Shown here piece after piece: positions 23,473 to 55,811 of a DNA stretch of 64,000 bases. This DNA is from Halorubrum hochsteinianum. GTDB lineage: Archaea > Halobacteriota > Halobacteria > Halobacteriales > Haloferacaceae. Position numbers and translations under genes: made by a program. The notes under the pieces are model-generated. The model saw only the letters and a list, made by a program, of their open reading frames with translations. It was not told the origin of the DNA and searched no databases. Location of the stretch: NCBI RefSeq assembly GCF_023702125.1, contig NZ_CP098415.1:1736001-1800000 (forward strand), written 5' to 3'. Each line of letters opens with the position of its first letter. Within the stretch, counting starts at the first letter, position 1.

Positions 23473-23871
23473 TCAGGGAACCTGCGTCACGCGGTCGACG
23501 TCGTCGAGGGCGGCGAGGTCGGCCGCGAGCGCCTCCTGATCGACGTTCGCCTCGTAGTAGAACACGATGTCGAACGCCCCGTCCCGCAGCAGCTGTTGAC
23601 ACTCCCAGACGAACTCCTCGTCGTCGAGGGTGAGCCCCTGGAACTGGTTCGACGAGAAGTCCGTGTCGTCGTTTCCGGCCTCGATGTACGTCTCGCCTTT
23701 CCCCGCGTGGTCGGCGATGACCTCGTTGGCGGCGACCGTCAGCTCGTGCATCTCCAGGTCCTGCTGGCCGTCGAGGGTCGTGTGGACGATACAGCCCACC
23801 AGCTCGATGTCGCCCGGCTCCAAGAGGGCCTTCGTACGGGTGTACAGGTCCGAATCGACGGTCTCGCTCAT
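23473..23871 (-). CDS. DUF5778-like haloarchaeal protein
   Basis: A 132-aa soluble acidic protein. It begins MSETVDSDLYTRTKALLEPG and contains IELVGCIVHTTLDGQQDLEM, a pattern I associate with the haloarchaea-specific DUF5778 family; this is from memory and not checked. No catalytic motif is visible. The start at 23871 is chosen because the family begins there; the longer open frame upstream is rich in Arg and not protein-like. It lies between the hydrolase and the broken mutY, all leftward, with 25-75 nt gaps. Confidence 0.7.
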   Translation of the reverse strand: MSETVDSDLYTRTKALLEPGDIELVGCIVHTTLDGQQDLEMHELTVAANEVIADHAGKGETYIEAGNDDTDFSSNQFQGLTLDDEEFVWECQQLLRDGAFDIVFYYEANVDQEALAADLAALDDVDRVTQVP

Positions 23872-23944: not shown

Positions 23945-24400
23945 TCAGCGACGCAGCGAGACGACGACACCCCCGTCCGCCGTCTCGGTCTCGACCAGTC
24001 CGTCGTCGACCAAGTCGTCGACGAGCCCGCGCAGCCACTCGCGGCCGTGTTCGCCGTCCGGGGCGTAGTCCACGCGGATCCGGTGGCCGAGCGCGTCCAG
24101 CTCCATCCCGTCGCGCTCGCCGAGCAGCCGCACGATCCGCCCGCGGAACTGCCGCCGGCTCCCCTCGAAGCTCGGCTGTTCGGGCACGTCCGGCGCGGTG
24201 AAGTCGCCGGTCTGATACGCGTGACACCACTCGCGCCACGGGCAACCGGCCTCGTCGCAGCGAGGGGACTTCCCGCAGGCGACGCCGCCGAGTTCCATGA
24301 CCGCGTTGTTCCACACCCGCGACTCGCCCGCCGGCATGAGCTCCGAGGCGGCCCGCTCGAACGCGTCGTCGTCGTCCGGCACGTCGAACGCGCGGTGAAG
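23945..24400 (-). pseudogene. mutY: mutY (A/G-specific adenine glycosylase), C-terminal half only
   Basis: MutY removes adenine mispaired with 8-oxoguanine. This remnant starts mid-protein at LHRAFDVPDDDDAFERAA, which in intact haloarchaeal MutY follows the VDTNVxR segment of the catalytic domain. It continues with WNNAVMELGGVACGKSPRCD and PWREWC, the iron-sulfur cluster Cys region (spacing C-x5-C-x4-C-x5-C), and the usual C-terminal helical domain. Upstream of CTT at 24400 the frame turns into AT-rich unrelated sequence. The helix-hairpin-helix and catalytic Glu/Asp region are absent from the whole window. A GTG at 24382 could start a 145-aa product, but it would lack catalysis. Confidence 0.88.
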
Positions 24401-24529
24401 GGAGAAATCTATTATATCGGCGTCTGTTATATCAGCGATTCCTCTATGACAAGAGGCACGACGAAATCTTAACGCGCTTCAGTAAGCTCTATACTCATTC
24501 GTAGTCGTTGGCACTGTCCCACTTGAATG
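24401..24529. other. left junction of the island, non-coding
   Basis: An AT-rich stretch (e.g. CTATTATATCGGCGTCTGTT) between the mutY break and the integrase stop. It should contain the left attachment site. TATATCGG and TATATCAG are near-repeats at ~24413 and ~24429. No gene is seen. Confidence 0.5.
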
Positions 24530-25553
24530 TCAAATATTAAACTTATAGAGGTCTCTTCGGAATTGATCCTCTATATCCTCGTATCGCGCATGGATGTACG
24601 AATCAATGGCTTCTCTCGTAGATTTAAGCTCGCCACCGCTTTGTAGGTCTCCCCGGAGGTACTTGAGCCGATCCCGCTGCCATCTTTTTTCGATGCGGAA
24701 CCAGGTTGTGAATCGGTGCCGACCGTAATGGGAACTCACGCCCCTGTATTCTTCTGTCGGCCCGTATTTGGGTCGGAAGTACTTCTTCCACACATCGTTG
24801 ATATTCGTATGGTCCATCTTCCTCGCTCCTGATTTCGACAAGAACAACCAAGGGCGATCATTGTCCGGTCTACAGAGCAAGTACTCAATGAGCACTCGAC
24901 GGAGCTCCTCATCAAGCGGCAGAACACGGGGGCGTTTTGACTTGTTCATATCACGGGTGTGCGGAATGTAGATTGCGTTTGGCCGTCCACTGAGAACGGG
25001 ATCCGTCCCGAGTGTATCGTAATGATCCTGTAACTCTGAATTCGTGAGATGGATCTCGCTTAATTTGATGTTCGAGACTTCCGATGCGCGAAGGCCGAGC
25101 TTGATCTGGATGATTATCAGAGCACGATCCCGGATGTGTTTCACCTCTGTATTGATGAACTCTCTCAGGTCGTCAAGCGGTATTGGGTAGAAATCCTTAG
25201 GATCATCCTCACTCAGATTCAGCTTGTCTTTGCCGGACTCGAACGGGCTGTAGTTTTCAGGATGCGGAAACGACGGTTCATTCTGAAAATAGCTATACGC
25301 TTGATCTAATGTCGATAGCTTTGCTGCGACAGTACCGTCACTGTTGTGTCGCTCATTCAGATAGTATTTGCCGAACTCCTTCACATGTTCTGTCGTTGGC
25401 ACCACCGGATGACGGTCATATCTGGACCACATGAAATTGCACCACTGATCCACCCGACGTTCGATAGCGACTATCGTGCGATCAACGTAGTCGCTGTCAT
25501 AGACTGCTTCATCTAACCAAAGCTGGAACGGGTCTGACTCGATCGCTTTGAAT
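24530..25553 (-). pseudogene. tyrosine integrase (XerC/D-like), 5' end cut off by an IS
   Basis: A site-specific recombinase, the likely integrase of the island. The SAM-like core-binding domain (PFQLWLDEAVYDSDYVDR onward) and the catalytic domain are both present: first Arg in KLGLRASEVSNIKL, the HxxR box in HYGRHRFTTWF and the Tyr in IDSYIHARYEDI. The coding frame continues upstream of the GTG at 25453 to the IS boundary at 25553 without an ATG/GTG, so the true start was separated by the IS at 25554-26493. Beyond the IS a compatible frame resumes (…SCRIEASLK, ~26494-26598). The protein is therefore probably no longer made at full length. Its stop faces the mutY junction. Confidence 0.82.
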
Positions 25554-26493
25554 GGCTGTGTTGAATCGCCATACGGCGGCAGGGTAGGTCGCTAAATCAA
25601 AGGCGTTGAAGCGGGAAGATTCGGTTGCCTATGACACAAATCTCCCGCTTCATCGGGGAGGTTGTGCCGGTTGCTCAAAGAGTTACTGGCGATGGAGGCG
25701 AATCCGCCGCCCCGGAAGGCGGCGGCGGATTCGCCGACTACGCACTCGTTTCCCTCCACTGTCTGCGAATTTACCTCGATACATCGTACCGCATGACGAT
25801 CGGCCTGCTCAAAGAGATGCCACAAATAACCGGGGAGATCGGCCTTAGCGCGGCCGATCTCCCTGCGCCGTCCACGTTGTGTAAGGCGTTCGACCGGATC
25901 AGTATGAGTGTTTGTCGAGTGCTGCTGCGCCAGTCGGCGCAGCTGCACGATCTCTCCGAACACGCCGCGATCGACGCCACATTCTACGACCGCTCACCAG
26001 CCAGCCGCCACTACTGCCAGCGAATCAGCTACCGCGTTCAAAAGCTGAAAGTCACGAAACTCGTCGATACAGCGTCGCAAGCTGTCCTTGACGTTCACTG
26101 CTCGACGAACCGAGAAGGAAGTGACGCAGATCTCGCTGAGCAGATCGCCCGCCGGAACGCGGGCGATCTGCGGTCTCTTGCGGCCGATAAGGGCTACGAC
26201 AAGAAATCGCTCCGCGAAGGATTACGCGATCTTGGGATCAGACCGCTGATCAAGCACCGCATCTTCGCGCCGTACGACCACGCACACAACGCCAGAATCG
26301 ACGATAATCGCTACAATCAGCGCTCTATGACCGAAACCGTGAACTCGGCTGTGAAGCGCTCGCTCGGCTTCGCCGTGCGAGCGCGGTCCTGGTTCCGTGA
26401 GTTCCGCGAGATCGCTCTGATGTGTATGGTCTACAACATCAAGCGCTTCGTCAAACAGTGAATCTCTACGCCTTACAGCGATTCAACACAGCC
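25554..26493 (+). mobile_element. IS5-family insertion sequence in the integrase gene
   Basis: A 940-bp element with 16-bp terminal inverted repeats, GGCTGTGTTGAATCGC at the left and its complement GCGATTCAACACAGCC at the right. The flanks are CTTTGAAT and CTTTAGAG, only 5 of 8 identical, so a clean 8-bp target duplication as seen for the sister element at 55812 is missing. It carries one transposase gene. Confidence 0.88.
25631..26461 (+). CDS. IS5-family transposase
   Basis: A DDE transposase of ~276 aa. The catalytic residues are placed as in IS5/ISH relatives: Asp in AIDATFYDRSPASRHY, Asp in LAADKGYDKKSL and Glu in NQRSMTETVNSAVKR. The conserved LPAPSTLCKAFDRI and C-terminal SWFREFREIALMCMVYNIK are also present. 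The frame is intact, so the element may be active. The DNA is unusual: several long perfect inverted repeats lie within the gene (25697-25735, 25833-25863, 25919-25948, 26140-26171). The ATG at 25631 is preferred to an upstream TTG. Confidence 0.93.
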   Translation: MTQISRFIGEVVPVAQRVTGDGGESAAPEGGGGFADYALVSLHCLRIYLDTSYRMTIGLLKEMPQITGEIGLSAADLPAPSTLCKAFDRISMSVCRVLLRQSAQLHDLSEHAAIDATFYDRSPASRHYCQRISYRVQKLKVTKLVDTASQAVLDVHCSTNREGSDADLAEQIARRNAGDLRSLAADKGYDKKSLREGLRDLGIRPLIKHRIFAPYDHAHNARIDDNRYNQRSMTETVNSAVKRSLGFAVRARSWFREFREIALMCMVYNIKRFVKQ

Positions 26494-26525
26494 CTTTAGA
26501 GATGCCTCGATGCGGCAAGAGCCAC

Positions 26526-26568
26526 CGTCGCGCCGCGAACCTACTGTAGCAGGTTCGCTGGCGCGACG
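26526..26568. other. long imperfect palindrome (stem-loop)
   Basis: Arms CGTCGCGCC + GCGAACCT pair with AGGTTCGC + GGCGCGACG, 17 bp with one bulged T and an 8-nt loop. A second perfect 10-bp hairpin (GGGTGACGCG/CGCGTCACCC) follows at 26607-26628. They lie between the IS and an integrase fragment. Their role is unknown; on the leftward strand they would fall in the 5' coding part of the broken integrase. Confidence 0.7.
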
Positions 26569-26658
26569 CTCCGAGACGAACGTCTTGGTGGAGAACATCG
26601 CTCATCGGGTGACGCGGTCGCGTCACCCTTGCCTGCTGTGACATCCAACTCCAACTGA

Positions 26659-26859
26659 GAACTCACCACCAATCCTCTACCCAAGAGCGCTAGTACGTTT
26701 ACGCCGCACTGGTTCCGTTCCTTCTTCAACACGAATATACATCCCAGAAGTGGACACCACGAGCAGTCAGTGCTGCCTACGGTGGTGAAGTACATCCGAG
26801 GCGACGTGGGGACAGCAACAGATAGCAAGAGAAGAGACATCATGGACGTGTATAAATAG
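26659..26859 (+). pseudogene. tyrosine recombinase, C-terminal fragment
   Basis: An open stretch after a stop codon at 26656 encodes FTPHWFRSFFNTNIHPRSG and then VLPTVVKYIRGDVGTATDSK and a stop at 26857. This matches the end of haloarchaeal tyrosine recombinases: the HxxR box (here HWFR) followed by the KYLRGD-type segment before the catalytic Tyr region. The N-terminal domain and start are missing. It probably marks an earlier integration event next to the present integrase. Identification rests on motif resemblance only. Confidence 0.6.
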
Positions 26860-26918
26860 GACTAGGAGAATCAAGTTGCCGACGCGTATACAAAAGAACA
26901 TCAACCACCTCGGCATCT

Positions 26919-27476
26919 ATGACTGACAATATTCGGGACGACTGGCCGACACCCGGCCCAAACGAGCCTGTCCCGGCGTGGAACGAGTACGAGCAGCTGC
27001 GCGAGGCCGTCCACAACTATCTCGATCACCAGCCAGACGACCCGACGTGGGACGACATCTGGCGGGCACTCGGGGCAATCATGGGCGAGTACCAGCGGGA
27101 TGCATTCGCCGGGGCGTTCGGCCTCGACGAGCCTGCCGAGACAGCCTGCATCCGCCGCCTCATCACAGGCGAGGCCGAATGCCTCCATTCCCCACTCGAA
27201 GCCGACAGCGACCCGTCTGGGCCGCCTCATAAGCCACCTGCCAGCGACCACGCGACACTTTGGCTCGATAACGGCGAGCCTGCGGTCTACTCGATGCACG
27301 TGTATCCGGGCAATATCGAACGGTTCGACGCCGACGATCCGCCCTACAACCTCTGGTTCAACATCTTCGAGTTTGCTGCTGAGTGGGGACTTGAGGTGTC
27401 GGTTCTCCCTAAATCGTGGTACAACCTTGGATCAACAGTCCACGTCGTCTTCTACCCACCAGAGCGGCACCGTTGA
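26919..27476 (+). CDS. hypothetical protein (185 aa)
   Basis: A soluble acidic protein without a recognised family. The N-terminal half is helical (NEYEQLREAVHNYLDHQPDD, then WRALGAIMGEYQRDAFAGAF). The C-terminal half looks like a beta-rich domain (DNGEPAVYSMHVYPGNIERF and STVHVVFYPPER). Codon use is haloarchaeal, with GC higher than the surrounding spacers, so the gene is convincing. The TATA-like box CGTATACAAAAG lies ~30 nt upstream. Neighbours are small plasmid-type genes. Confidence 0.65.
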   Translation: MTDNIRDDWPTPGPNEPVPAWNEYEQLREAVHNYLDHQPDDPTWDDIWRALGAIMGEYQRDAFAGAFGLDEPAETACIRRLITGEAECLHSPLEADSDPSGPPHKPPASDHATLWLDNGEPAVYSMHVYPGNIERFDADDPPYNLWFNIFEFAAEWGLEVSVLPKSWYNLGSTVHVVFYPPERHR

Positions 27477-27537
27477 GTTCTAAGAGCCATCTATAGCCGC
27501 TGCTCGGCGCTACTGAACTCTCGTCAAAGCAATAGTG

Positions 27538-27702
27538 CTACTCGTTGACGTCGACGACGGTTGCCTCTTCAGTCGGCGCGATATCGAACTCGGCAGCGCC
27601 GCGCTCGATCTCTTCGGGCGTCGTCCCCTCAGCATCGGCAAGCAGCTCGGTGAGCTCCTCGTCCGAGATCGTGTCGGCGTCGATCGGGGCTTCGCGGCTC
27701 AT
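27538..27702 (-). CDS. small acidic protein (54 aa)
   Basis: An ATG at 27702 opens MSREAPIDADTISDEELTEL, continuing to TTPEEIERGAAEFDIAPTEE and VNE-stop. The amino-acid composition (Asp/Glu-rich) and third-position GC bias are those of real haloarchaeal genes. No family is recognised. ATAATTAAC just upstream of the start could be part of a promoter for a leaderless transcript. Confidence 0.6.
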   Translation of the reverse strand: MSREAPIDADTISDEELTELLADAEGTTPEEIERGAAEFDIAPTEEATVVDVNE

Positions 27703-27801
27703 AATTAACATCTAGCTGCCGGGAAGTGATATTTGTGACTGTCGGAACCTCTTGACTTCGCTCTTAACCAACACAGTAGACCGATATTGCCCATCTATTG
27801 G

Positions 27802-27963
27802 TTAAGATTCGCCGCGTTCCCACCAGTCGTCGACGGCCTGTTCGTCGATGTTGACGCTGAAGGTAATGCCGCAACTACAGTGGACACCGATCTGGTTCGC
27901 GGTCGTCGTCATGTGTTCTTTCGAGACCCCGCACCCGGGACAGTCGACGGCGAACGTGGCCAT
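27802..27963 (-). CDS. small zinc-ribbon protein (53 aa)
   Basis: An ATG at 27963 starts MATFAVDCPGCGVSKEHMTT, followed by QIGVHCSCGITFSVNIDEQA. The two CxxC pairs 19 residues apart form a typical minimal zinc ribbon. Such small zinc-finger proteins are abundant in haloarchaea and some regulate transcription or biofilm formation; the role here is unknown. The frame extends upstream of 27963, but the zinc-ribbon start gives the compact protein. Confidence 0.68.
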   Translation of the reverse strand: MATFAVDCPGCGVSKEHMTTTANQIGVHCSCGITFSVNIDEQAVDDWWERGES

Positions 27964-28020
27964 ACAGATGCTTGGTTGCGAGGGGTGAAAACGGTGGAGT
28001 TCCACACGTCAGGATAGTTC

Positions 28021-28373
28021 ATCATATCCGGATGCCCGGACCGATAACAACATGCTATCGGCTGTAGCTCGACCTATCATACAGACGATCGCGGATCGCT
28101 ACGTTGGCCGGCTCGACGCAGTCGCCGTGAGTTGCTCGCCAATCTCTGTGACGATGTTCGTGGAAATGTCGAACGTGAATTCGATCCGGTCTGGATATAA
28201 ATATCAGTACCTTAATAAATAGTAGGGTTAATCTCTATCGACTCTATAAAAACATCGTTTAAACTGAGGGAAGACTCTATGACATTTTAAATCGGATAGA
28301 GATAGACGACCGTTCTAACTGTTCCAAAGAGATTGATGATTTCGGTGTCTTCTACTTCTTGAGAGAGTTAATT
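28021..28373. other. AT-rich spacer
   Basis: No gene is supported. On the minus strand near 28090-28200 there is a short protein-like stretch (YPDRIEFTFDISTNIVTEIG) that runs into a stop, perhaps a remnant. The left arm of a 15-bp inverted repeat lies at 28232-28246. Confidence 0.5.
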
Positions 28374-28812
28374 CTAGTAGAAACGATCTAATGTTGATTG
28401 CTCGTCTTCTGGGTGTTGCTCGTCGTCCTGAGGTGTATTTAACCCTTCATCAGCGAGTGGGCGGCCCTCCCAAGGCCAACGATCATCAAATAGATTGACC
28501 TGTTTTGTGTCTGTCTCATCTTGCGAGCGGGGGTTCTGGCTCATTTGTGAGTTTAGCTGCGGCTAGTCAGTTGTCTCTCAGCCCCTTTCGACGCCTCGTG
28601 GCTTGTACGTAGGGTCTGGAAGCGTTACAGCAAAACCGCGAGTGCGATGGATTATAAATAGGTGGGCGCAAGGAAATCAGACTGAGATTGCCTTGCCTGC
28701 GGATCTTTCACTCTCGTGACGGTCGTCTGACACGCTCTCTTTCGCTATCCGATTGAGAATTTCACTGGCTCCTCCCGTAATTTGGAGGGTGTTTCTGTAG
28801 AGTCGATAGAGA
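28232..28812. repeat. segment bounded by a perfect 15-bp inverted repeat
   Basis: TCTCTATCGACTCTA at 28232-28246 recurs as its exact complement TAGAGTCGATAGAGA at 28798-28812. Similarity extends a few bases further inward on both sides. The 580-bp interior holds one small gene (28374-28544). It may be a miniature transposable element or a deleted IS; no target duplication is obvious. Confidence 0.6.
28374..28544 (-). CDS. small hydrophilic protein (56 aa)
   Basis: An ATG at 28544 opens MSQNPRSQDETDTKQVNLFD, then DRWPWEGRPLADEGLNTP and an acidic tail ending LDRFY. No family is recognised. The charged, Gln/Asp-rich composition is typical of small haloarchaeal plasmid genes. It lies inside the segment bounded by the inverted repeats at 28232-28246 and 28798-28812. 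Confidence 0.55.
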   Translation of the reverse strand: MSQNPRSQDETDTKQVNLFDDRWPWEGRPLADEGLNTPQDDEQHPEDEQSTLDRFY

Positions 28813-28932
28813 ATTGTCCGCTTACTGTATTCAGCGTATCATGAATGAGCCATGTGCGAAGCAGTAGGATGAGAACAGATACAAGACGACAGTGATTGCG
28901 ATAATAGCTTAAGCCTCCTAGTGAGCGTCTGA
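28545..28932. other. spacer without gene
   Basis: About 390 bases of mixed composition. Apart from the right arm of the inverted repeat (28798-28812) nothing is recognised. CGATTGAGAATTTC and CGATAGAGAATTG are loosely similar. Confidence 0.45.
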
Positions 28933-28967
28933 CTTAATCTTAAGGTTAGGGATATTCTTAGGGATAA
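28933..28967. promoter_or_regulatory. CTTAAG-centred palindromic site upstream of the AAA ATPase
   Basis: The sequence CTTAATCTTAAGGTTAGG is followed by ATATTCTTAGGGATAACC, directly before the ATG at 28975. Related sites occur at 29903, 32416, 32611, 35448 and 37201. The position suggests an operator or a partition/centromere-like site. Confidence 0.65.
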
Positions 28968-28974
28968 CCGTATC

Positions 28975-29904
28975 ATGGCAGATCAATTCACGGCGGCACT
29001 CGATGACGCCGAAGAAGCCCACGCTCGGTATGCTGAGCAGTTAGGGCTCATCGAGGACCGCACACCGTTCGCGGCGGAATCACTCCCTGACACGCGGATC
29101 GCCGTCCGGGTTAACGACGACCTTCTCCAAGAGGTGGCCTCGCACATCCTCACCCGAGCTGGCCACGTCTCGGTGATCGACAAGCGAGGCGCTGGGAAGA
29201 CGCACTTCCGAGAGCTCGTGTACGACGCGCTGAGCGAGGGACCACGCAGCGACGAGTTCGCCATCGCCCGCATCCGCGAGGTCGAGAGTATCACCACACG
29301 CCGGCTCTACACGCGGCTGCTCGATGAACTCGATGCGTACGATGAGTTGAATATCCCCGAGACCTACCCGCGGGCGACCGACGAGGTCCGACAGGTCGTC
29401 GAGGACGTCGCCGAGCAGTTGGAGGCGGCGGATCTCACGTGTATCGTCCAGGTGGATCAGCTCGAGGACGCGGCGCGGAACACGCGTACCTTTGAGCAGC
29501 TGCTCGCCGGGCTCCAGAGTATCGGCGATCTCGGCGAAACTGGACCCGCGTTCATCCTCTTCCTGTTCGGGACACCCGACGCCGGTGACCGACTCGACGA
29601 GCTGCGGGAGACGTTGTCGTCGCGGCTGGTCGCCAAGGACCGGTCGCTCGAACGCTTCGAGTTCGCCGAGACTGAGGAGCTGATCGCCCGGTGGCTGGCG
29701 TGGGCCCGCGACGAGGAGTACACCGACGGCTATCTCTCCGATCCGTACACGGCCTCGGCGATCCGGACGATCGTTGAGCGCTCGGATGGGACGCCACGAT
29801 CAGTTCGCCAAGAGTGCTACCACGCCTATCGTGCCGGTGCCCAACAGTTCGCCGCCGGCGACGGCGTCGAGATCACTGACAAGACAATCGAGACGTACGC
29901 CTAA
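28975..29904 (+). CDS. AAA-type ATPase (309 aa)
   Basis: A P-loop ATPase of unknown cellular role. Walker A is KRGAGKTHFREL at ~residue 68-79, and the Walker B-like strand is CIVQVDQLEDAARN at ~155. The C-terminal part (RSDGTPRSVRQECYHAYRAG) resembles the lid of ORC1/Cdc6 or STAND-type ATPases, but the winged-helix domain of Orc1 is absent. The gene is framed by CTTAAG palindromes on both sides and followed by a small protein gene 22 nt downstream. A partition, replication or segregation role for the element is an inference. A deleted second copy exists at 32456. Confidence 0.75.
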   Translation: MADQFTAALDDAEEAHARYAEQLGLIEDRTPFAAESLPDTRIAVRVNDDLLQEVASHILTRAGHVSVIDKRGAGKTHFRELVYDALSEGPRSDEFAIARIREVESITTRRLYTRLLDELDAYDELNIPETYPRATDEVRQVVEDVAEQLEAADLTCIVQVDQLEDAARNTRTFEQLLAGLQSIGDLGETGPAFILFLFGTPDAGDRLDELRETLSSRLVAKDRSLERFEFAETEELIARWLAWARDEEYTDGYLSDPYTASAIRTIVERSDGTPRSVRQECYHAYRAGAQQFAAGDGVEITDKTIETYA

Positions 29905-29925
29905 GCTTAAGCTTAAGGTTAAATC
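29903..29925. promoter_or_regulatory. CTTAAG repeat site between the two cassette genes
   Basis: AAGCTTAAGCTTAAGGTTAA occupies the gap between the ATPase stop and the next ATG (29927). It contains two overlapping CTTAAG cores and matches the site at 32611 in the decayed cassette. Confidence 0.65.
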
Positions 29926-29926
29926 T

Positions 29927-30247
29927 ATGAGCGATAACCCAATGACGGACGCATTTGACGCAGCGGAAGACGAACAGGACGAGACGAACGAGGGCGACAC
30001 CGGAGACGACTTCGACGTCGAACAGTACTTCGACGCGCTGAACAGCGACAGCGCTCCGAAAGATAAGACAGTCGGCGTCGCGGTGACGACCGAGACACAC
30101 GCGTTCTACCACGAACTTCAGAACGCCGATGAGGTCGAGGTGAACCCAGCCCAGTCAATTCGGGATCATTTGGAGAAGCTGGCTCACCGCCACCCGAAGG
30201 TCTTCGAGCGGGCGATGCGGAAGCTCGAGATTGAGCGTGAATTTTGA
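29927..30247 (+). CDS. small acidic partner protein of the AAA ATPase (106 aa)
   Basis: The N-terminal half is acidic and probably disordered (DAAEDEQDETNEGDTGDDFD). The C-terminal half is compact and positively patched: VGVAVTTETHAFYHELQNAD, then SIRDHLEKLAHRHPKVFERA and MRKLEIEREF. This layout would suit a small DNA-binding adaptor such as a ribbon-helix-helix or ParB-like partner, but no motif proves it. It is co-directional with the ATPase with the palindrome between them. The decayed copy at 32634-32945 keeps the same gene order. Confidence 0.68.
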   Translation: MSDNPMTDAFDAAEDEQDETNEGDTGDDFDVEQYFDALNSDSAPKDKTVGVAVTTETHAFYHELQNADEVEVNPAQSIRDHLEKLAHRHPKVFERAMRKLEIEREF

Positions 30248-30385
30248 AGGAGACTATTCGACTACTGGCTTTGAACCAGCGTTGAATCTCCGAAATCGTC
30301 CAAAGAACCGGTTCGGTATGATGTACAGTAGTGAGAGATAGATTCTGACCGGGGGTAAGAGTATGAATTCGTCTGTTGTGATTTG

Positions 30386-30417
30386 GCCCCAACGATAAAG
30401 TTTAAATTCGTTGGGGC
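30386..30417. promoter_or_regulatory. palindromic operator over the TATA box of the first TumE-like module
   Basis: Perfect 10-bp arms GCCCCAACGA and TCGTTGGGGC flank a 12-nt centre holding TTTAAAT, a good archaeal TATA element. It ends 22 nt before the ATG at 30440. This is the expected place for autorepression by a toxin-antitoxin pair. Confidence 0.8.
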
Positions 30418-30439
30418 TGTATCCCAACATAGGAGAACG

Positions 30440-30748
30440 ATGCCAGCAACGGTCGTGTACCGGGAAGAAGATGAGAAATCCGACGGGAGTCGGTACGAGA
30501 TGGTCGCATGGCAGGTCCCGGTGACTGAGGACTTCCCGCAGGGACTGAAGTACAGCTTCCAGTACATGGACGCTGACGGCGACACGCTCCTGCGGTACGA
30601 CAACTCACCGTACCACCTAGACGTCGGCCGGCATCATCGACACCCACCCGATGGCGAAATCACCAAACTGGAGTTCACGGGTCTCTCCGACCTGATCGAC
30701 GAGTTCCAGAATGAGGTAAACGAGATCTATGAGCAACGAACCCACTGA
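30440..30748 (+). CDS. TumE/DUF6516-family toxin-like protein
   Basis: A 102-aa protein. The pattern GLKYSFQYMDADGDTLLRYD followed by NSPYHLDVGRHHRHPPDGE, a histidine-rich 'RYDN..HH.H' block, is typical of the TumE (DUF6516) family, regarded as the toxin half of TumE/TumA modules. The ATG at 30440 follows the operator palindrome. The reading frame overlaps the downstream HVO_A0114-like gene by 20 nt, which implies coupled expression. Toxicity is not demonstrated here and the name rests on family resemblance. Confidence 0.78.
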   Translation: MPATVVYREEDEKSDGSRYEMVAWQVPVTEDFPQGLKYSFQYMDADGDTLLRYDNSPYHLDVGRHHRHPPDGEITKLEFTGLSDLIDEFQNEVNEIYEQRTH

Positions 30749-31196
30749 CACCGAACCCACGCACGACGAGTTTACGCCCGACCCGGATGAGGTTGAGTAC
30801 CCTTCGACCCTCCGCATCACGTCGCTTCCAGCGGAGCAGGCGCAGGCTGCGGCAATTGAACGCGCCGAACAGTGGGAAGACGGCGAGGAGGTGCCGCACG
30901 TCGTCAACTTTGAGGACCGAGCTCGGCTCCGCCAGCTACTCACCGACCGACGGATGGAGCTGCTCGAAGTGGTGATGGATCATCCGCCCGAAAGTATTCG
31001 AGCGTTGGCCGACCGCCTCGAGCGCGACGTCCACGACGTCCACGACGATCTACACCTCTTAGCCGAGTACGAAATCATCCACTTCGAAGAGGACGGTCGC
31101 GCAAAGAAGCCGTACGTCCCCTACGACACGGTCCGGCTTGAGGTTGAGTTTGGCCTGCCGCGTGGCGAGGGGTCAGGATCGGCCGCATCCGCGTAA
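30729..31196 (+). CDS. HVO_A0114-family winged-helix DNA-binding protein (antitoxin/regulator)
   Basis: A 155-aa predicted transcriptional regulator. The winged helix is visible in MELLEVVMDHPPESIRALAD, RLERDVHDVHDDLHLLAEY and EIIHFEEDGRAKKPYVPYDT, the pattern of the haloarchaeal HVO_A0114 family. The N-terminus contains FEDRARLRQLLTDRRMELL, also conserved in that family. It overlaps the TumE-like gene and is expected to act as its antitoxin and to bind the upstream palindrome. A paralogous pair is at 36233-36997. Confidence 0.8.
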   Translation: MSNEPTDTEPTHDEFTPDPDEVEYPSTLRITSLPAEQAQAAAIERAEQWEDGEEVPHVVNFEDRARLRQLLTDRRMELLEVVMDHPPESIRALADRLERDVHDVHDDLHLLAEYEIIHFEEDGRAKKPYVPYDTVRLEVEFGLPRGEGSGSAASA

Positions 31197-31539
31197 TCGG
31201 TTTTAATGCTTCTGTTGAAATCTTCAGAGGATGATATGTTCTTGTGGTCGTGCTGAATATAGAGGGTAAGTTCAGCAGAGGTCGGTGTTCGTTTCAACGG
31301 ATCAACGGTGAGCCGATTCGTTAGAACGAACGGGCGTTTCTATCGCTGACACGGAGGGGCAAGCACGCCCACAACTCGAAGACCAATCGGTGTACAGAAC
31401 CAGACAGTGAATTGAATCGGTCAGAGCCGACACCAGGCCTGCTTCCCTGGCGGTGTTTCGAACCAGTTGAGCCCGAGCGGTTGAGGATACCAGACTCTCA
31501 GACCATCAGCATCTTATATCCAACTATAGAATACCATGT
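31197..31539. other. spacer with a solo IS end
   Basis: No gene is supported. GCTTCTGTTGAAATCTTCAG at 31208 resembles the left end of the IS at 32996 and is probably a leftover. A TATA-like CTTATATCC at ~31511 lies ~25 nt before the GDT1 gene. Confidence 0.55.
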
Positions 31540-32196
31540 ATGGTTGGTTGGCTCGATATCTTGATTACTTCATTTGTGCTGCAGCTTCTTGCTCTTCCCG
31601 GTGAAAAAGGACAGATAGTGATCGCTGCACTCGCCACGAAGTACGACCCGTACGTGGTCGTGGCCGGCGCAGCAACCGCATTCGGTGGCTGGACAGTTCT
31701 GGAAATTCTGCTCGGGAATGCGCTGAAAGGCGCACTCCCCGAAGCGTTCCTCGACGGCCTCACTGCGGCGTTGTTCTTCATCTTCGCTGCGTGGGTCCTC
31801 TATACATCACAGTTAGACTTCGAGGACGACACGAGTGACGAGCAACCGATTACCGATGGGAGTTCAGGGGTTGTTGATGACGCAGTTGATGTCGTTCCAT
31901 CTCGCTTCGCGGGGTTTGTTCCGTCATTTTCGTTGATGGTGTTCGGCGAGTTCGGGGATAAAACACAACTGATCACGATCGGCCTCGCAGTCCAGTATGG
32001 CGCTCATCCGGCTATTTGGTTGGGAGAGATGCTTGCCATCATTCCTGTGAGCTTGGTGACGGCGCTGTTTTTCTCGCGCAGTTCGGCCTACATCAACACG
32101 AAGTGGGTGCGGTACGTCTCGGCGAGCTTGTTCGCGCTATTTGGGCTCGATATCATGGCGAAATACCTCCTCGGCTTTCACTTCCTCCCATTTTAA
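31540..32196 (+). CDS. GDT1/TMEM165-family (UPF0016) membrane cation transporter
   Basis: A 218-aa membrane protein with about six to seven helices arranged as two halves. The second half carries the signature ExGD[KR][TS] as GEFGDKTQLITIGL. In the first half the matching position reads LALPGEKGQIVIAALA, so the acidic signature is changed. Family members exchange Ca2+ or Mn2+ for H+; the ion here is unknown. A hydrophilic acidic loop (residues ~95-115) links the halves. It is flanked by IS remnants, so it may have been carried in as cargo. Confidence 0.85.
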   Translation: MVGWLDILITSFVLQLLALPGEKGQIVIAALATKYDPYVVVAGAATAFGGWTVLEILLGNALKGALPEAFLDGLTAALFFIFAAWVLYTSQLDFEDDTSDEQPITDGSSGVVDDAVDVVPSRFAGFVPSFSLMVFGEFGDKTQLITIGLAVQYGAHPAIWLGEMLAIIPVSLVTALFFSRSSAYINTKWVRYVSASLFALFGLDIMAKYLLGFHFLPF

Positions 32197-32415
32197 CGGC
32201 GGATGAGAGAGACGGCTGCCCCGGTTCATTTCCTGATGTGAATAAAGTTCACAGACGAAACCGTTAATCCAGTGGTGACCCTGACTTTCGCGGCTTGATG
32301 ACCAAATCAACAGCCGTCGAGATTTAACGACACGTCTGCCACTCCCCCATGCCCGACTCGCGCTCTGTATTCAGCACACTGTTTATATCAAATTCAGATG
32401 ATTTCAACAGAGATA

Positions 32416-32444
32416 CTTAATCTTAAGATTAGCCCTAACCTTAG
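32416..32444. promoter_or_regulatory. CTTAAG palindromic site of the decayed cassette
   Basis: CTTAATCTTAAGATTAG followed by CCTAACCTTAGG, in the same position relative to the ATPase remnant as the site at 28933. The palindromes have decayed less than the genes. Confidence 0.65.
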
Positions 32445-32455
32445 GTACGAACGTG

Positions 32456-32612
32456 TCATTGCCGACCCGTTCACGGCGGCGCTCGATGCGACCGAAGGAG
32501 CCCACAGTTGGTGTGCCAGGAGTACTACCACACCTATGGCACTAGCGCCCAACAGTTCGCCGCCGGCGACGGCGTCGAGCTCACTGACGAGACAACCGGG
32601 ACGCACATCTAA
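32456..32612 (+). pseudogene. AAA ATPase remnant (internal deletion)
   Basis: The first ~65 bases match the start of the ATPase gene at 28975 (GACCCGTTCACGGCGGCGCT versus GATCAATTCACGGCGGCACT). They then jump directly to sequence matching the last ~100 bases (GCCCAACAGTTCGCCGCCGG, shared exactly). Roughly 0.75 kb including both Walker motifs is missing. Confidence 0.88.
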
Positions 32613-32636
32613 GGTTAAGATTAAGATCAAACCTAT
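32611..32636. promoter_or_regulatory. inter-gene palindromic site of the decayed cassette
   Basis: AAGGTTAAGATTAAGATCAA, equivalent in position to 29903-29925 between the two cassette genes. Confidence 0.55.
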
Positions 32637-32945
32637 GTTTGACGGCCTAATAAGGGTGTATTTGACATGGCGGGAGACAAACGGGCCAGGACGAACGAGA
32701 ACGATATCGGTAACGACTTCGACATCGGCCGGTACCTCGATGCGTTCGACAGCGCAGCAAAAATAAGATAGTCGGCGTTGAGGTGAACCGAGACACATGC
32801 GTTCTATCACGAACTCTAGAGCGCAGATGAGGCCGAAGTGATCCCAGTCCAGTCGGTTCGAGATCACATAGAGAAACTGTTCAACTGTCACCCGGGGGTC
32901 TTCGGGCGGTCGATGCGGAAACTTGAGATCGAGCGTGAATTCTGA
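32634..32945 (+). pseudogene. decayed copy of the small cassette protein
   Basis: Aligns along its length with 29927-30247: for example AACGACTTCGACATCGGCCG, CGATGCGGAAACTTGAGATC and GAGCGTGAATTCTGA match CGACTTCGACGTCGAACAG, CGATGCGGAAGCTCGAGATT and GAGCGTGAATTTTGA. Frameshifts and stop codons (e.g. GCAGCAAAAATAAGATAG) break the frame. The flanking palindromes are kept. Confidence 0.85.
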
Positions 32946-33086
32946 CGCTGTGTTGTAGGGACTTAACCAACATTCAGACGGAACTGCGCCCAGTGGGCTC
33001 TGTTGAAATCCTCAGAGAGTTACATGTTTGTCTTGGCTCTGTTGAAATCCTCAGAGAGTTACATGTTCGTCCTGTGATTCCATGAG

Positions 33087-33923
33087 ATGAAGACCCTCCC
33101 GAAGTCACAGATTCTCCGTTTTACTGAGAAGGCGATCCACCTAGCACGCCGAGCAGTATCTCGATACTCCTCGAAGTTTTCTAAACACCGCTACACACTC
33201 CCCCAGCACGTTGTTCTGTTGTGTCTCAAAGTTAGGAAGAACACGACCTATCGTGGTTTACTCGACGAATTGATCGAGATGCCACGCATTCGTCGAGCTC
33301 TTGGATTAGCTGAACTACCTACGCCATCAACGCTCTGTAAGGCGTTCAATCGGCTTGATATGGCTGTATGGCGTGTTATATTGACTCTCTCAGCGACGTT
33401 CCTTCCGACGAGTGGAATCGTTGGAGTTGATGCGTCAGGGTTCGACCGGAGTCACGCCTCTAAACACTACACGAAACGTGCTGAACTCACGATTCAGCAG
33501 CTCAAGGTGACGCTGCTGGTCGATGCGAAGGTGAACGCAATTCTCGATCTACACGTGACGACAACTCGAAAACACGATAGCCAGATCGCTCCGTCGTTGA
33601 TCAAGCGTAACCCCGAGTGTATCGATATTCTGCTCGGTGACAAAGGCTACGACGATCAGAAAATCAGACGGCTCGCCCGGCAACACGAGGTTCGGCCACT
33701 GATTAAGCATCGTGAGTTCACATCGCTCCACAAGGCATGGAACGCTCGCTTAGACGCTGACCTCTACGGACAACGGAGCCAATCTGAGACCGCGAACTCA
33801 ACGCTCAAACGAAAATACGGTGTTCGTCCGCTCACGACGCTGGTGGAAGCAGTTCCGCGAACTCACCATCGCCTGTCTCTGTCACAATATCGACCGATCA
33901 CTCTGAGCGGTCAAGACAGGTGA
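33087..33923 (+). pseudogene. IS5-family transposase, frameshifted near the C-terminus
   Basis: A DDE transposase related to the other two IS5 copies but more distant. Catalytic Asp in GVDASGFDRSHASKHY, second Asp in LLGDKGYDDQKI and Glu in GQRSQSETANSTLKRKYG are intact. After KYG (near 33830) the frame shifts: the expected end, WWKQFRELTIACLCHNIDRS and stop, is encoded in the next frame at ~33838-33907. The frame in hand instead runs on as VRPLTTLVEAVPRTHH. The element is therefore probably inactive by itself. Confidence 0.88.
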
Positions 33924-33977
33924 GGCACGGATGGCTCGCCACAAGGGCTTTACTCCAGAATTATACAATCATTGAAC

Positions 33978-34424
33978 ATGAACCGAAGGTGGTTCGCTAC
34001 TTGCTTCTGTTCAGTATTAATCCCTCTATCGGGGTGTACCACCGATGAGGAGTCAACTGGGAATCCGGACCAGATGTCAGAAGACCCGCCGGAATGGTTG
34101 AGTGGCACAGTTGATTGTGTACCAGTATACGGTGTTCTTGAGTTGTCTGAAGTTCGTGATTCCGTGAAAAATTCAGCAGAAACACTTGATTACAGTGAAT
34201 TTTCAAACACATCTCAAATGATAATCGATTTTGCAATCAACAATCAAGCAGCAAAAACATGCTCAAGTAAGGGTGGTAGTGAATTTCAAGTACTTCAAGG
34301 AAGGATAACTGATCTCATACCCGCAGAAGATCGGAATAACTTACCGAACAGTATTGCGATTCAAGTTAAATCAAACTACTATTACATAACCGAAATGAGA
34401 TCATTCGATGCGATACTTATCTAG
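33978..34424 (+). CDS. putative lipoprotein, low GC, IS passenger
   Basis: A 148-aa protein with a lipoprotein-type N-terminus, RRWFATCFCSVLIPLSGC, where the final Cys is the predicted lipid-attachment site. The rest is a small soluble domain with two further Cys and a beta-rich end (IAIQVKSNYYYITEMRSFDA). Codon use is strongly AT-rich, unlike neighbouring genes, indicating recent transfer. The ATG at 33978 is preferred over TTG at 33972. It lies between the transposase and the right IS end, so it moves as cargo. No family is recognised. Confidence 0.6.
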   Translation: MNRRWFATCFCSVLIPLSGCTTDEESTGNPDQMSEDPPEWLSGTVDCVPVYGVLELSEVRDSVKNSAETLDYSEFSNTSQMIIDFAINNQAAKTCSSKGGSEFQVLQGRITDLIPAEDRNNLPNSIAIQVKSNYYYITEMRSFDAILI

Positions 34425-34623
34425 TAGTCTATTTGCTCAGATTATTTGAGACCATGCGCAAGCGTGATCTTACGTTTAATTGAACTGGACACCCCGGAAG
34501 TATCGCCCGCAGTTCGTTCAGCATGCACTCTTCAGCGACCAGCTGTTTCATCCTATTTTGTGTCTGATGAATAGGATTTCAACAAAGCCGTCCAGTGTTA
34601 ATTAGTAGCGATACTCACCGCAG

Positions 34624-35220
34624 TCAAATCGTCTCGAAGTGGTCGTACTCGCGTTCGGTCGTGAGAAGTGAGGCGTGGCGGAGACGATTTCGGACATCGT
34701 AGAGCGTGTTTCCCTCTTCGATCCGCAGCATCCGCCAGGCAACGCTGTGGCGAAGTGTGTGTGCGGAGACATCCTCGGGTCGGCCTCGTCCCGAGAAGCA
34801 GTAGGGACGGACACCAGCGCGACGAGCGGCTCGCTGGACGACGTCGTTGATTCCCTTGCCGGTCATCCGACCGGCCTTCTGGCTGGGCACCAGAGCGGGA
34901 TCGTCGTCGACTCGAGCCTCGAGGAACTCTCGAAGCGTCGTGATGGTCTTCAGGGAGTTGTCCCGATCGAGCTCGAAGGTCACAGGCGGCGGGGTGCTGT
35001 CGTTGGGGTAGTCCTTCTGGACTGACGTTGGGAGCCGAAGCAGACCATCGTTGAGGTCAACCATCTCGCGGTCCACGTGGGCGAGCTCGCCGCGACGGAG
35101 CCCAGTGTCGTAGAGAAGGGTGGTGATCGCGTCGTCACGCCGGGGGTGCCGTCCCTCACGAGCCGCGTCGCGCATCGCCTCGACTTGTTCGGGCTTCACC
35201 CAGTGCTTCTCATCACCCAT
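34624..35220 (-). CDS. short tyrosine recombinase (catalytic-domain only)
   Basis: A 198-aa site-specific recombinase. The catalytic residues are present: Arg in LLYDTGLRRGELAHVD, HxxR in SAHTLRHSVAWRML and the Tyr near TEREYDHFETI at the very end. The N-terminal SAM-like DNA-binding domain found in full integrases is absent: the protein starts MGDEKHWVKPEQVEAMRDAA, which is the lead-in to the catalytic domain. Such short recombinases occur on haloarchaeal plasmids and pleomorphic-virus-like elements. Start at 35220 chosen as the first ATG before this conserved lead-in. It may serve dimer resolution or integration of an ancestral element. Confidence 0.85.
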   Translation of the reverse strand: MGDEKHWVKPEQVEAMRDAAREGRHPRRDDAITTLLYDTGLRRGELAHVDREMVDLNDGLLRLPTSVQKDYPNDSTPPPVTFELDRDNSLKTITTLREFLEARVDDDPALVPSQKAGRMTGKGINDVVQRAARRAGVRPYCFSGRGRPEDVSAHTLRHSVAWRMLRIEEGNTLYDVRNRLRHASLLTTEREYDHFETI

Positions 35221-35549
35221 CTGTGGACTGTGCCTCTCTGGGAGCGGTCTAAAAATGTTCAATTCTATTGGTAGATTCGAACGCTTCTATAGTCGATCAG
35301 CCTCAACCCGCTACCGTCTGGTGGTTTTGTCTCGTGGAAGGTGGTCCTCAAGGTGCCAACCCCAGGGGTAGCATGCCGATCAGAGCGGGCAAAACGCGAT
35401 CTGATAAACTTGTGAATGCTATATCTTCTCTCTGGGGCCGCTTCGATCCTAAGAGAATTAATCTTAAGATTAATCTTAGGAATAGGCCGGTGGTTTCTCC
35501 GGGAGGAGTAGCTGCGAGCTGAGTATCAGGGCGCGTCGCTGTTTTGTGG
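35221..35549. other. spacer with orphan palindrome
   Basis: No gene is supported. It contains the orphan CTTAAG palindrome described separately at 35448-35485. Confidence 0.5.
35448..35485. promoter_or_regulatory. orphan CTTAAG-centred palindrome
   Basis: CCTAAGAGAATTAATCTT is followed by AAGATTAATCTTAGG, the most symmetric of the six related sites, centred on CTTAAG at 35463. No cassette gene is attached. It lies past the 3' end of the leftward four-gene cluster. Confidence 0.7.
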
Positions 35550-35771
35550 TCACCAGCCAGTGGCCATGTCCCAGAGGAGGGCGACGTCGACGACACCGAG
35601 GATAACCCCAGCCAGTAGCCACGCATCAAGTAACGATGTGAGGTCAAAGATCGGGCCAGAAACTGCGAGCTCGAAGGCCGACACCAAACTCGTCACCTCA
35701 AAGAAGAGCACCCCGAAGATGGCCCAGAGCACAGTCGCACCAGCGGCGATGAGAAGCTTGCTCTCGCTCAT
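35550..35771 (-). CDS. small two-helix membrane protein (73 aa)
   Basis: Two predicted membrane helices, KLLIAAGATVLWAIFGVLFF and AWLLAGVILGVVDVALLWDM, joined by a short loop. No family is recognised. It is the last gene of a leftward cluster (36997 to 35550) with a 24-nt gap to the zinc-finger gene, so it is probably co-transcribed with the toxin-antitoxin-like pair. A membrane partner or a phage-type small protein is possible. Confidence 0.65.
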   Translation of the reverse strand: MSESKLLIAAGATVLWAIFGVLFFEVTSLVSAFELAVSGPIFDLTSLLDAWLLAGVILGVVDVALLWDMATGW

Positions 35772-35795
35772 CTTTGACGCCCTAGCGACACCCAG

Positions 35796-36215
35796 CTACT
35801 GTCCATCGTACCAGGGCGGCGCACCGAACGCGTCGGCGTAGCAGTCCGGGTGACACGGTCGCTTCCGGTTGTCCGGCCATGCCCTGTCGAGCGGGACCTG
35901 CTCACCACAGAGGCCACACTCGGCGGTGTGGCCTGCCTGTCGGGCATCGGGAGAGAGATTCCGCGCCTCGATGTAGAGTTCGTGGAGCGCCCACGGCGTG
36001 AGGCGAACGGCGACACGCTCGGCCGGCTCGGGATCGCCGTCCGATGTCGTGGCCGAGAGCGTGAGCACCCAGTTGTCGCCCGGCTCGCCATCGGTCGCCG
36101 GTCCCAAGGCGATCGTCCCTGCGAGGTCGTCGTCGACGTAGTACCAGTCTGCGTCCCGGTCGACGTGGTAGTGACCATCGGGGCGCGGATCCTCGGGATC
36201 GACGTCGTCGCCCAT
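35796..36215 (-). CDS. zinc-finger-like protein of the second TumE-like cluster (139 aa)
   Basis: The N-terminal part contains DPRPDGHYHVDRDADWYYVD and a beta-rich block (GDNWVLTLSATTSDGDPEPA). The C-terminal part has a four-Cys/His cluster: ECGLCGEQVPLDRAWPDN followed by CHPDCYADAFG, a treble-clef-like metal site. No family is named. The ATG at 36215 lies 18 nt after the stop of the HVO_A0114-like gene, so the genes form one operon. The open frame upstream of 36215 only shadows that gene. Confidence 0.7.
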   Translation of the reverse strand: MGDDVDPEDPRPDGHYHVDRDADWYYVDDDLAGTIALGPATDGEPGDNWVLTLSATTSDGDPEPAERVAVRLTPWALHELYIEARNLSPDARQAGHTAECGLCGEQVPLDRAWPDNRKRPCHPDCYADAFGAPPWYDGQ

Positions 36216-36232
36216 CGTGTGTCCTCGCTGGG

Positions 36233-36628
36233 TCAGGCGTTTGCCTTCCGCCCCTGTCCCGACCCGGTCGTGAGCGGGATGTCGGCGTCGATTTCGTCGT
36301 ACCACACGACCGGCCGCTTCGCCTGGCCATCCTCTTCGAGTTCGACGAGGCCGTAGTCAGCCAGCTCGTTCACGTTCTCGAGAACCTCTGGCGGGTTCCG
36401 GTCAACGAGGCGCGCGAGCTCGCGGATACTCCCCGGCTCGTGTTCGACGATCGCCTCCAAGAGCTCGAGGTTGGTCGAGCGGAAGACGCGACCGAACGTT
36501 TCGAGGTTCTCGATCGACAGCGTCGGCTCGCTGGGGTCGACGTCCTCGCCGGCGTCGATCGCTTCGAGACGCTCTTCGAGGCCGCTACGGTCGGCAGACT
36601 TGATCTGAACGTGGAGTGTCTGGGTCAT
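36233..36628 (-). CDS. HVO_A0114-family winged-helix protein, second copy
   Basis: A 131-aa regulator paralogous to the one at 30729. The winged helix reads NLELLEAIVEHEPGSIRELA, RLVDRNPPEVLENVNELADY and GLVELEEDGQAKRPVVWYDE, matching the first copy position by position. The N-terminus differs, being shorter and carrying SIENLETFGRVFRSTN. It follows the TumE-like gene by 72 nt and should be its antitoxin/autoregulator. Confidence 0.82.
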   Translation of the reverse strand: MTQTLHVQIKSADRSGLEERLEAIDAGEDVDPSEPTLSIENLETFGRVFRSTNLELLEAIVEHEPGSIRELARLVDRNPPEVLENVNELADYGLVELEEDGQAKRPVVWYDEIDADIPLTTGSGQGRKANA

Positions 36629-36700
36629 GGGTGGTGGGGTGTGGGGTCGTGGGTTGGAATTAGTCGCGGGTCTGTACGTCGGTCACCGTGCTCGAACGGA

Positions 36701-36997
36701 CTACCAGTCGTCGCGCTTCTCTTCTGGGAGCGCCGCCCGCCAGGCGCGGAAGATCTCCGCGAGGCCAGGGTAGTCAATCTCGAATGTCTCGCCCCCGAGG
36801 TGGAGCTCGTGGACGCCGTGGTGGTTGTCGAACCGGATGATTGGGTCGTCCGCACCGGCTTCGCCGTAGTGGTAGGCGTACTTGATCCCGTCCTCGAATC
36901 GCTCCGATGTCGGGACTGAGAGCACACGCACCCGCGCCACGGTGCCGTCGGCGTAGGCTTCAATCTCGTCTTCGAGTACGGTGACATCATCGCTCAT
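36701..36997 (-). CDS. TumE/DUF6516-like toxin, second copy
   Basis: A 98-aa protein resembling the product at 30440: RVLSVPTSERFEDGIKYAYH, then YGEAGADDPIIRFDNHHGVH and LHLGGETFEIDYPGLAEIFR. The 'RFDN.HG.HE' block corresponds to RYDN..HH of the first copy but has fewer histidines. The start is taken at 36997 (MSDDVTVLEDE); an ATG two codons upstream is also possible. The operator palindrome at 37032-37051 lies 35 nt upstream. First gene of the leftward cluster. Confidence 0.75.
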   Translation of the reverse strand: MSDDVTVLEDEIEAYADGTVARVRVLSVPTSERFEDGIKYAYHYGEAGADDPIIRFDNHHGVHELHLGGETFEIDYPGLAEIFRAWRAALPEEKRDDW

Positions 36998-37031
36998 CCA
37001 CACACGTGTCGACGTACCCTGGTCCGATAAG

Positions 37032-37051
37032 TGTTAGGGAAAACCCTAACA
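37032..37051. promoter_or_regulatory. palindromic operator of the second TumE-like module
   Basis: Perfect 8-bp arms TGTTAGGG and CCCTAACA around AAAA, just upstream of the toxin-like gene. The GTTAGGG/CCTAAC half-site also resembles the outer part of the CTTAAG sites (e.g. GGTTAGGG at 28943). Confidence 0.75.
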
Positions 37052-37200
37052 AGAGCAAAGGAACAGATAGCGCCCACAATGGCAACACCGAGCGATCATT
37101 CTGTCAGCTGTGAGGCTACACCCAGATGTGGCTGATGCGGTACTACTCGTCGCCGAGGTCGTTATCGACAGAGACTTGCGGGACATTTGAAGCGACAAAA

Positions 37201-37233
37201 GTTAATCTTAATCTTAACTATAGCATTAATCTG
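37201..37233. promoter_or_regulatory. orphan TTAATCTTAA-type site
   Basis: GTTAATCTTAATCTTAACTA with ATTAATCTG following; direct repeats of TTAATCTTAA. Related to the other cassette sites but less symmetric. It lies between the PadR stop and the TumE-like operon. Confidence 0.55.
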
Positions 37234-37329
37234 AAATACTCTGTATACGAGGTCTAGCGACGCTAAGCAGAGTTCACACGAGAAGAGCGTGAAATACTAG
37301 AGTCAAACAGTCCGAACGCAGGGATTCGA

Positions 37330-37611
37330 TCAGCTGTCGTGATCAATGTACTCGGCTTCCCATTCAGTTCGAGCTTCAATCTCTCTAGAGCCTCGGCGAG
37401 TAGTGGTGTACTCGTTGGTCCGGCGGTCGCGCTGGCTCTTCTCGATAAGTCCCTTCTCAACGAGCGTATCGAGATTTGGATAGAGCCGGCCATGATGGAT
37501 CTCCTTTTCGTAGTAGTCCTCGAGCTCGTCTTTGATCGCGAGTCCGTGGGGGTTATCGAGTCCGGAAACTACGTAAAGCAGATCGCGCTGAAAGCCAGTG
37601 AGGTCATACAT
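37330..37611 (-). CDS. PadR-family transcriptional regulator
   Basis: A 93-aa winged-helix protein. LTGFQRDLLYVVSGLDNPHG, followed by KDELEDYYEKEIHHGRLYPN and LDTLVEKGLIEKSQRDRRTN, is the standard PadR DNA-binding domain with the conserved G.LYP.L..L...GLI block. The C-terminal coiled coil is short, as in the small PadR subgroup common in haloarchaeal plasmids. No neighbouring transporter identifies a target. It may control the adjacent cluster. Confidence 0.88.
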   Translation of the reverse strand: MYDLTGFQRDLLYVVSGLDNPHGLAIKDELEDYYEKEIHHGRLYPNLDTLVEKGLIEKSQRDRRTNEYTTTRRGSREIEARTEWEAEYIDHDS

Positions 37612-37678
37612 GTCGCAATTTGCTCATTCGAGTTTTGAAATACTATTGATCTGGTCCTGTATGGAGCCAAGGGATTCA

Positions 37679-38086
37679 TCACTCTCGCCGTGGGTCACCA
37701 ACTGGTATTTCACCATATTCTGGACAAGAGACCCATCCCTGTCCGAATGCCCCACCCATCCCTTGGTCCGGGCTCCATTCGTGTTCATCCCCACAATGTG
37801 GACAATCTACTAGCGGAGGGTCAATCTCAACTGCCTCTTGCTGGATGAAATGATTTCCTTGGTAAGAGTCACAGTGCTGACAGACGTTTCCCCAGACTTT
37901 CTTGCCGAGAGTATTGCTGTAGACCCGCTCAACAGGGGTTTCGTAATTCGCTAATATATCTCCGAGAGGCGTATCAAGATGATCTCCTCGTGGCCAGACC
38001 ACAGGCGTTTGCTCGCCACACTGCCAGCATTCTGTTTCCCACGACAGCAACTTCTGGCGATCAACTGGGAGATCGTCTGGGAGCAT
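37679..38086 (-). CDS. CxxC zinc-ribbon protein (135 aa)
   Basis: Three Cys pairs are visible: ECWQCGEQTPVVWP, NVCQHCDSYQGNHFIQ and DCPHCGDEHEW, plus a fourth partial site SCPEYGEI where the second Cys of a CPxCG knuckle has become Tyr. Two knuckles probably form one ribbon and the third is left with an incomplete partner. The central YSNTLGKKVWGNVCQHCDSY is a pattern seen in various mobile-element zinc proteins, but I cannot name a family. Confidence 0.68.
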   Translation of the reverse strand: MLPDDLPVDRQKLLSWETECWQCGEQTPVVWPRGDHLDTPLGDILANYETPVERVYSNTLGKKVWGNVCQHCDSYQGNHFIQQEAVEIDPPLVDCPHCGDEHEWSPDQGMGGAFGQGWVSCPEYGEIPVGDPRRE

Positions 38087-38231
38087 GATGATTAAATCCT
38101 ACTCTGATTGACTATTTGATTCTTTGTCTCTGGATGTGTTAGATTCCGTGTTTCGCCTACCGATACGCCCCGCTCCGCACCCAAATCGCCCCCTTGCTCT
38201 CCCGATTCTACATGTTCTGTTGTAGGTTTAA

Positions 38232-38510: not shown

Positions 38511-38614
38511 GAGCTACCACCCATAGAAGACGTGAGAGGCAGATTGTATTGATGTTTCGGAAGGTGGTAAGCTGTCCTTCGCGGTGGGCCTTCGACGTGA
38601 TCGCCACAGCTACC

Positions 38615-38658
38615 GTTACAGATTCAAATACAGTTACAGACTCTATTAGTTGTTACAG
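38615..38658 (+). repeat. GTTACAG triplet, copy 1
   Basis: GTTACAG occurs at 38615, 38633 and 38652, spaced 18 and 19 bp. The same triplet with the same spacing is at 40463. It lies ~370 bp before the first DUF1102 gene. Confidence 0.7.
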
Positions 38659-49673: not shown

Positions 49674-49678
49674 GCAGA

Positions 49679-55810: not shown

Positions 55811-55811
55811 G

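Follow-up and report, generated by a model that had tools for sequence, protein, structure and literature searches.

A mobile element encoding a tyrosine integrase very probably used a short core in the middle of mutY as its integration site, rebuilt the gene with a 3′ half of its own, and displaced the original 3′ half. The window (the whole 64 kb stretch of DNA that was analysed, genome C1:1736001-1800000) contains the displaced half, and the complete gene is situated at the island's opposite end. The features at the two junctions are as follows.

23945..24394, minus strand: displaced host mutY 3′ half, 149 codons and a stop, without its own start
24387..24396, minus strand: shared core ACCGCGCGTT at the window junction, whose 10 bases recur identically 57,792 bp away in the chimeric gene (junctions compared directly)
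23473..23871, minus strand: conserved gene found right after mutY in insertion-free relatives, typically 60–90 bp behind it
C1:1817734-1818750 (L009:17734-18750), minus strand: complete chimeric mutY, 338 aa, 58 kb from the displaced half and on the same strand

The displaced half encodes the C-terminal part of MutY together with its Fe-S region (match to TIGR01084 with E 5e-7, over profile positions 161-214), and its first codons specify R-A-F. The original prediction, that only the C-terminal half of mutY is present and is cut off at AT-rich DNA carrying an integrase gene, was borne out; the fragment is real, but its homology to MutY stops at about 24396 and not at 24400, as first given. Beyond this point, upstream of the displaced half, the DNA is AT-rich and unrelated, and the GC content drops from about 72% to 55%. 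No MutY catalytic half is present in the 64-kb window. The displaced half has retained an open frame, and its dN/dS of 0.09 against the displaced half of a near relative (G150) gives no sign of relaxed selection, so that the insertion in this genome is, by this measure, probably recent. The four cysteines of haloarchaeal MutY, both native and island-type, are spaced C-x5-C-x4-C-x5-C (window 24186-24300; L009:17734-18186), which differs from the C-x6-C-x2-C-x5-C spacing of E. coli MutY.

A genome search with the displaced half as query matched 100% of the query at the displaced half itself, and gave a second mutY match within an open frame of 346 residues. The gene there is 338 aa long and continues in frame through the junction with no stops, the target having been rebuilt by island sequence. 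The mutY 5′ half was found at this other junction, on the same strand, in agreement with the claim that the catalytic half lies outside the window.

Relatives without the insertion have mutY contiguous with both its upstream and its downstream gene, while here these neighbours are split, the upstream gene adjoining the chimera and the downstream gene adjoining the displaced half. Joining the host 5′ half to the displaced 3′ half gives an unbroken alignment across the junction with five relatives, at 83–87% identity. The GC3 values are 97% for the 5′ half of the chimera and 93% for the displaced half, compared to 66% for the 3′ half of the chimera, and the dS values against G150 are 0.14, 0.26 and 1.5, respectively. 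The split neighbours, the GC3 and dS values, and the continuity of the joined halves lead to the conclusion that a complete gene was rebuilt by the island.

Trees of the two halves were inferred from short alignments, with limited support for single branches. The 15 genes labelled as island-type are scattered in the 5′ tree (13 changes, against a shuffled mean of 13.8) and clustered in the 3′ tree (4 changes, against a shuffled mean of 14.1, with none of 500 shuffles as low). Displaced halves fall among native 3′ halves; the one described here groups with the native 3′ halves of the genus, and in G148 the 5′ half and the displaced 3′ half belong to one native group. Most island-borne 3′ halves start with RAF-x-EI[HR]N-x-DDPDYE, where they are two residues longer than native ones.

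The proposed mechanism builds on features read directly from the sequences, i.e., the chimera, the displaced half, the shared core, the empty sites, the recurrence in other genera and the differing histories of the two halves. An element with a tyrosine integrase would recombine at a core of about 10 bp that falls within the mutY codons specifying [Y/H]-R-A-F, immediately after the catalytic Asp motif VVDTNV. Beside its own core, the element would carry an in-frame, promoterless mutY 3′ half of about 450 bp. The host promoter, start and glycosylase half would become joined to the Fe-S/C-terminal half of the element, giving one complete chimeric MutY, and the original 3′ half would be pushed to the far end of the element as a remnant lacking a start. 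On excision, the original gene would be regained. The exchange is presumably catalysed by the integrase clade represented on the island, and would be reversible with an intact integrase. Counterpoints to this mechanism are that the core is only 10 bp, that the island's own integrase is truncated, and that many small insertions carry no integrase.

The island and its cargo comprise the following features.

24395..64000, no strand: part of the island within the window, as judged from the GC shift, the second junction and the gene order of relatives; continues to C1:1818186
24530-25453, minus strand: tyrosine recombinase (integrase), PF00589, 136 bp from the junction
25554-26493, plus strand: IS5-family insertion sequence (NF033579, E 2e-70), bounded by terminal inverted repeats of 16 bp and located at the integrase gene's 5′ end
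42728..55810, plus strand: Hma-like defence operon (cargo), from Pfam and PADLOC family matches
L009:13682-15315: AbiEi/AbiEii pair (cargo), from family assignment

The island has a core-to-core length of 57,792 bp, of which 39.6 kb lie in the window, consistent with the predicted size of more than 39 kb, and the same core is found at both ends, with the displaced target fragment at the far end. About 33 codons are missing from the N-terminus of the integrase (relatives are 368 aa), and homology of the frame persists as far as the IS at about 25553. The missing start was not found directly beyond the IS, and a deletion may have accompanied IS insertion. With the 5′ end of the integrase gene lost at the IS, this copy of the island is probably no longer mobile by itself. 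A search for excised circles or free forms in plasmids, phage records and IMG/VR found none; the exception was a full mutY on a 987-kb Natrinema replicon. A tRNA gene was rejected as the integration target, the sole tRNA of the window being at 14529. The Hma-like operon encodes a DUF499 ATPase, a DUF1156 methylase, a PLD/SNF2 helicase and, at its end, a restriction-nuclease-like protein, with two proteins in between that have no match. The functions of this operon and of the AbiE pair are putative. The island also carries a second deoxyhypusine synthase gene (56847-57821; PF01916, E 4e-101), the other copy being at C1:1697458-1698378.

G041, G038 and G081 each have an integrase with 66–68% identity to that of the island in the vicinity of a displaced mutY half (4.2 kb from the integrase in G081), and further integrases of the clade are so placed in Salinibaculum litoreum and Halovenus rubra (another family group), making five records from other genera and two families. 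In Salinibaculum the cores are about 112 kb apart. Several of the clade-integrase loci have a similar AT-rich arm beside the core. The remaining, mostly more distant integrases of the search had no mutY half within 1.5 kb, and no tRNA was present at any of the 30 loci. Those of G352 (L155) and G001 (L158), 62–63% identical to the mutY clade and with no mutY half in the fetched DNA, may form a sister group that uses a different target.

Every locus examined has its break point at the same nucleotide, after VVDTNVxRVx[Y/H] and before RAF. The earlier view that integration struck mid-mutY is supported, the integration being site-specific. An extra mutY 3′ half (counted at E 1e-25) was detected in 17 of 392 genomes of an order-wide sample, belonging to family groups f1, f4 and f7. 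The mutY site is, by these sequence comparisons, reused repeatedly in at least three haloarchaeal families. The position within the gene, which had been called unusual, was confirmed as mid-mutY, but it is not a one-off.

Displaced halves contain stops in G107, G115 and G226, and a deletion or frameshift in G114, G071 and G121; their dN/dS is about 0.3 in G148 and 0.6 in G071. Two genomes without an insertion (G110 and G143; downstream gene 73–77 bp from mutY) have a mutY that is of island type for roughly 60 bases after the core and native in its remainder, and in G110 the island-type stretch is 97% identical to the island described here compared to 48% to the native G123. The reverse mosaic is seen in G121 and G054. 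The patterns in G110 and G143 suggest homologous recombination between both 3′ halves, which would leave such a trace. In G105, G111, G118, G124-G127, G133, G140 and G151, a native-type mutY is followed by 1–4 kb before the usual next gene, with no recognisable displaced half in this interval; these are possibly older insertions.

Several insertions at the mutY site are only about 2–5 kb, with no integrase seen. G148 and G415, which are from different families, share a unit of identical length, 2,327 bp from core to core, that consists of a mutY 3′ half, AbiEi and AbiEii.

G148 L110:1773-4100 and G415 L217/L220: AbiE cassette, bounded by the same cores and without an integrase

Identity is 89–93% inside the cassette, but falls to 76% and 74% in the mutY DNA outside, with the change at the cores, which points to a recent, site-specific movement. 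Judging from the shared core, it would have been mobilised in trans by the integrase of a related element. A protein of 282 aa recurs in small mutY insertions (G150, L102:3424-4272; G107; G121); it has no Pfam or PADLOC match, and carries a Fic-like motif (HALPNANHRTS), judged by eye only. A wider proposal, tentative and given a little less than an even chance, is that haloarchaea harbour exchangeable mutY 3′-half cassettes of at least 2.3 kb, with no integrase of their own and with a promoterless half plus toxin-antitoxin or other cargo, which would cross families into the same mutY nucleotide by means of an integrase in trans, and that later homologous recombination would permanently remodel the host mutY.

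The integrase-less insertions and the mosaics bear on an alternative in which the architecture is as described but owes its origin to a different recombinase, or to homologous recombination of mutY copies, and not to the clade of the 24530-25453 integrase. It is unlikely, although it would accommodate the truncation of the island's own integrase, a different tyrosine recombinase near the site in G115, and the indication from G110, G143, G121 and G054 that homologous recombination also acts. Intact integrases of the clade lie beside a displaced mutY half in the five other records from two families, however, and the AT-rich arm at the core is common to several; homologous recombination alone would not place the edges exactly at the core between families.

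Integration with rebuilding of the target, the preferred reading, also differs from the original prediction in its consequence for the host. That prediction held that integration had broken mutY and that the host, deficient in MutY, could be a mutator unless another copy existed, as might be expected from a window holding only a 3′ half with neither start nor catalytic half. This is now very improbable, given the complete in-frame MutY 58 kb away, in which the host 5′ half is fused to the island-borne 3′ half. Its profile score is similar to those of native MutY of relatives (204 versus 200 bits), with the chimera and native haloarchaeal MutY alike scoring below the curated cut-off of TIGR01084. 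The motifs SEVM, GVGPYT and VVDTNV are present in its first half and the cysteine cluster in its second, residues 50-261 align to solved MutY structures, and it is the only one of six HhH-GPD proteins in the genome to match the mutY fragment. A full-length mutY is also present in each of the 17 genomes with an extra 3′ half. The intact chimera, 338 aa and complete, rules out a loss of mutY at the sequence level, an outcome that the prediction had itself named as refuting it, and there is therefore no ground to expect a mutator. By all sequence indications, the chimera is the genome's only MutY, and it presumably has normal activity.

It is extremely unlikely that a whole second mutY was acquired by gene duplication and the old copy decayed from its 5′ end; this would provide two mutY-like stretches on one strand with about 76% identity, as seen between the island-borne and displaced 3′ halves, but both sequence and neighbouring gene mark the complete gene's 5′ half as the host's own, foreign sequence is confined to the 3′ half and starts at the core, and a break at this very nucleotide recurs in three family groups. 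An assembly artefact or strain mixture is just as improbable, as both junctions sit on one 2.96-Mb contig and the same structure occurs on single contigs of independent genomes, complete records included.

This family of mobile elements would leave a widely conserved repair gene whole while exchanging almost half of its sequence, and would do so time and again in different families. Such exchange would explain the mutY fragments and the conflicting mutY trees in haloarchaeal genomes, and cautions that a split repair gene need not mean a mutator. Archaeal genetics gains a natural, conserved site for integration in the mutY core, and the minimal cassettes suit tests of mobilisation in trans.

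A literature search with poor coverage of subscription journals returned no paper that names mutY as a site of integration in haloarchaea. The principle of rebuilding is known. As far as could be checked, there is no description of a repair gene targeted at its middle, of a replaced half this large, of repeated use of one site in several families or of cassettes that lack an integrase. Prophages of the icd type, such as e14, are likewise gene-restoring. Islands in tRNA and tmRNA genes (Islander, PMC4383910) split their target, rebuild it, and leave a displaced fragment marking the far end, as seen here, and rebuilding is the rule for tRNA islands (PMC4383910). In contrast to both, the target here is a repair gene entered mid-gene, and about 45% of the protein (about 150 aa) is replaced rather than a short 3′ end. 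Archaeal elements integrated in protein genes (PMC6563490, PMC8371274) share the tyrosine recombinase and short att sites, and frame rebuilding is known among them, but those described from Thaumarchaeota occupy 3′-distal sites with few bases replaced, and mutY is not among the targets named in the portions consulted. Integrase-less, att-bounded units similar to the 2,327-bp AbiE cassette of G148 and G415 are known as cis-mobilizable elements (CIMEs; named in PMC5704250), although the cassette differs in being archaeal and in carrying half a host gene at its end. The dusA-associated integrases (PMC4482086) are also a family tied to one protein-coding target in many hosts, but they use the 5′ end of dusA in bacteria, whereas the site here is mid-gene, in archaea, with half of the gene replaced. 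SpyCI of Streptococcus pyogenes (PMC3430984, PMC4689407) is another site-specific island in a DNA-repair gene, mutL; there, integration at the 5′ end silences the gene and gives a switchable mutator, while the mutY island does not abolish its target but rebuilds the full gene, leaving a complete chimeric MutY.
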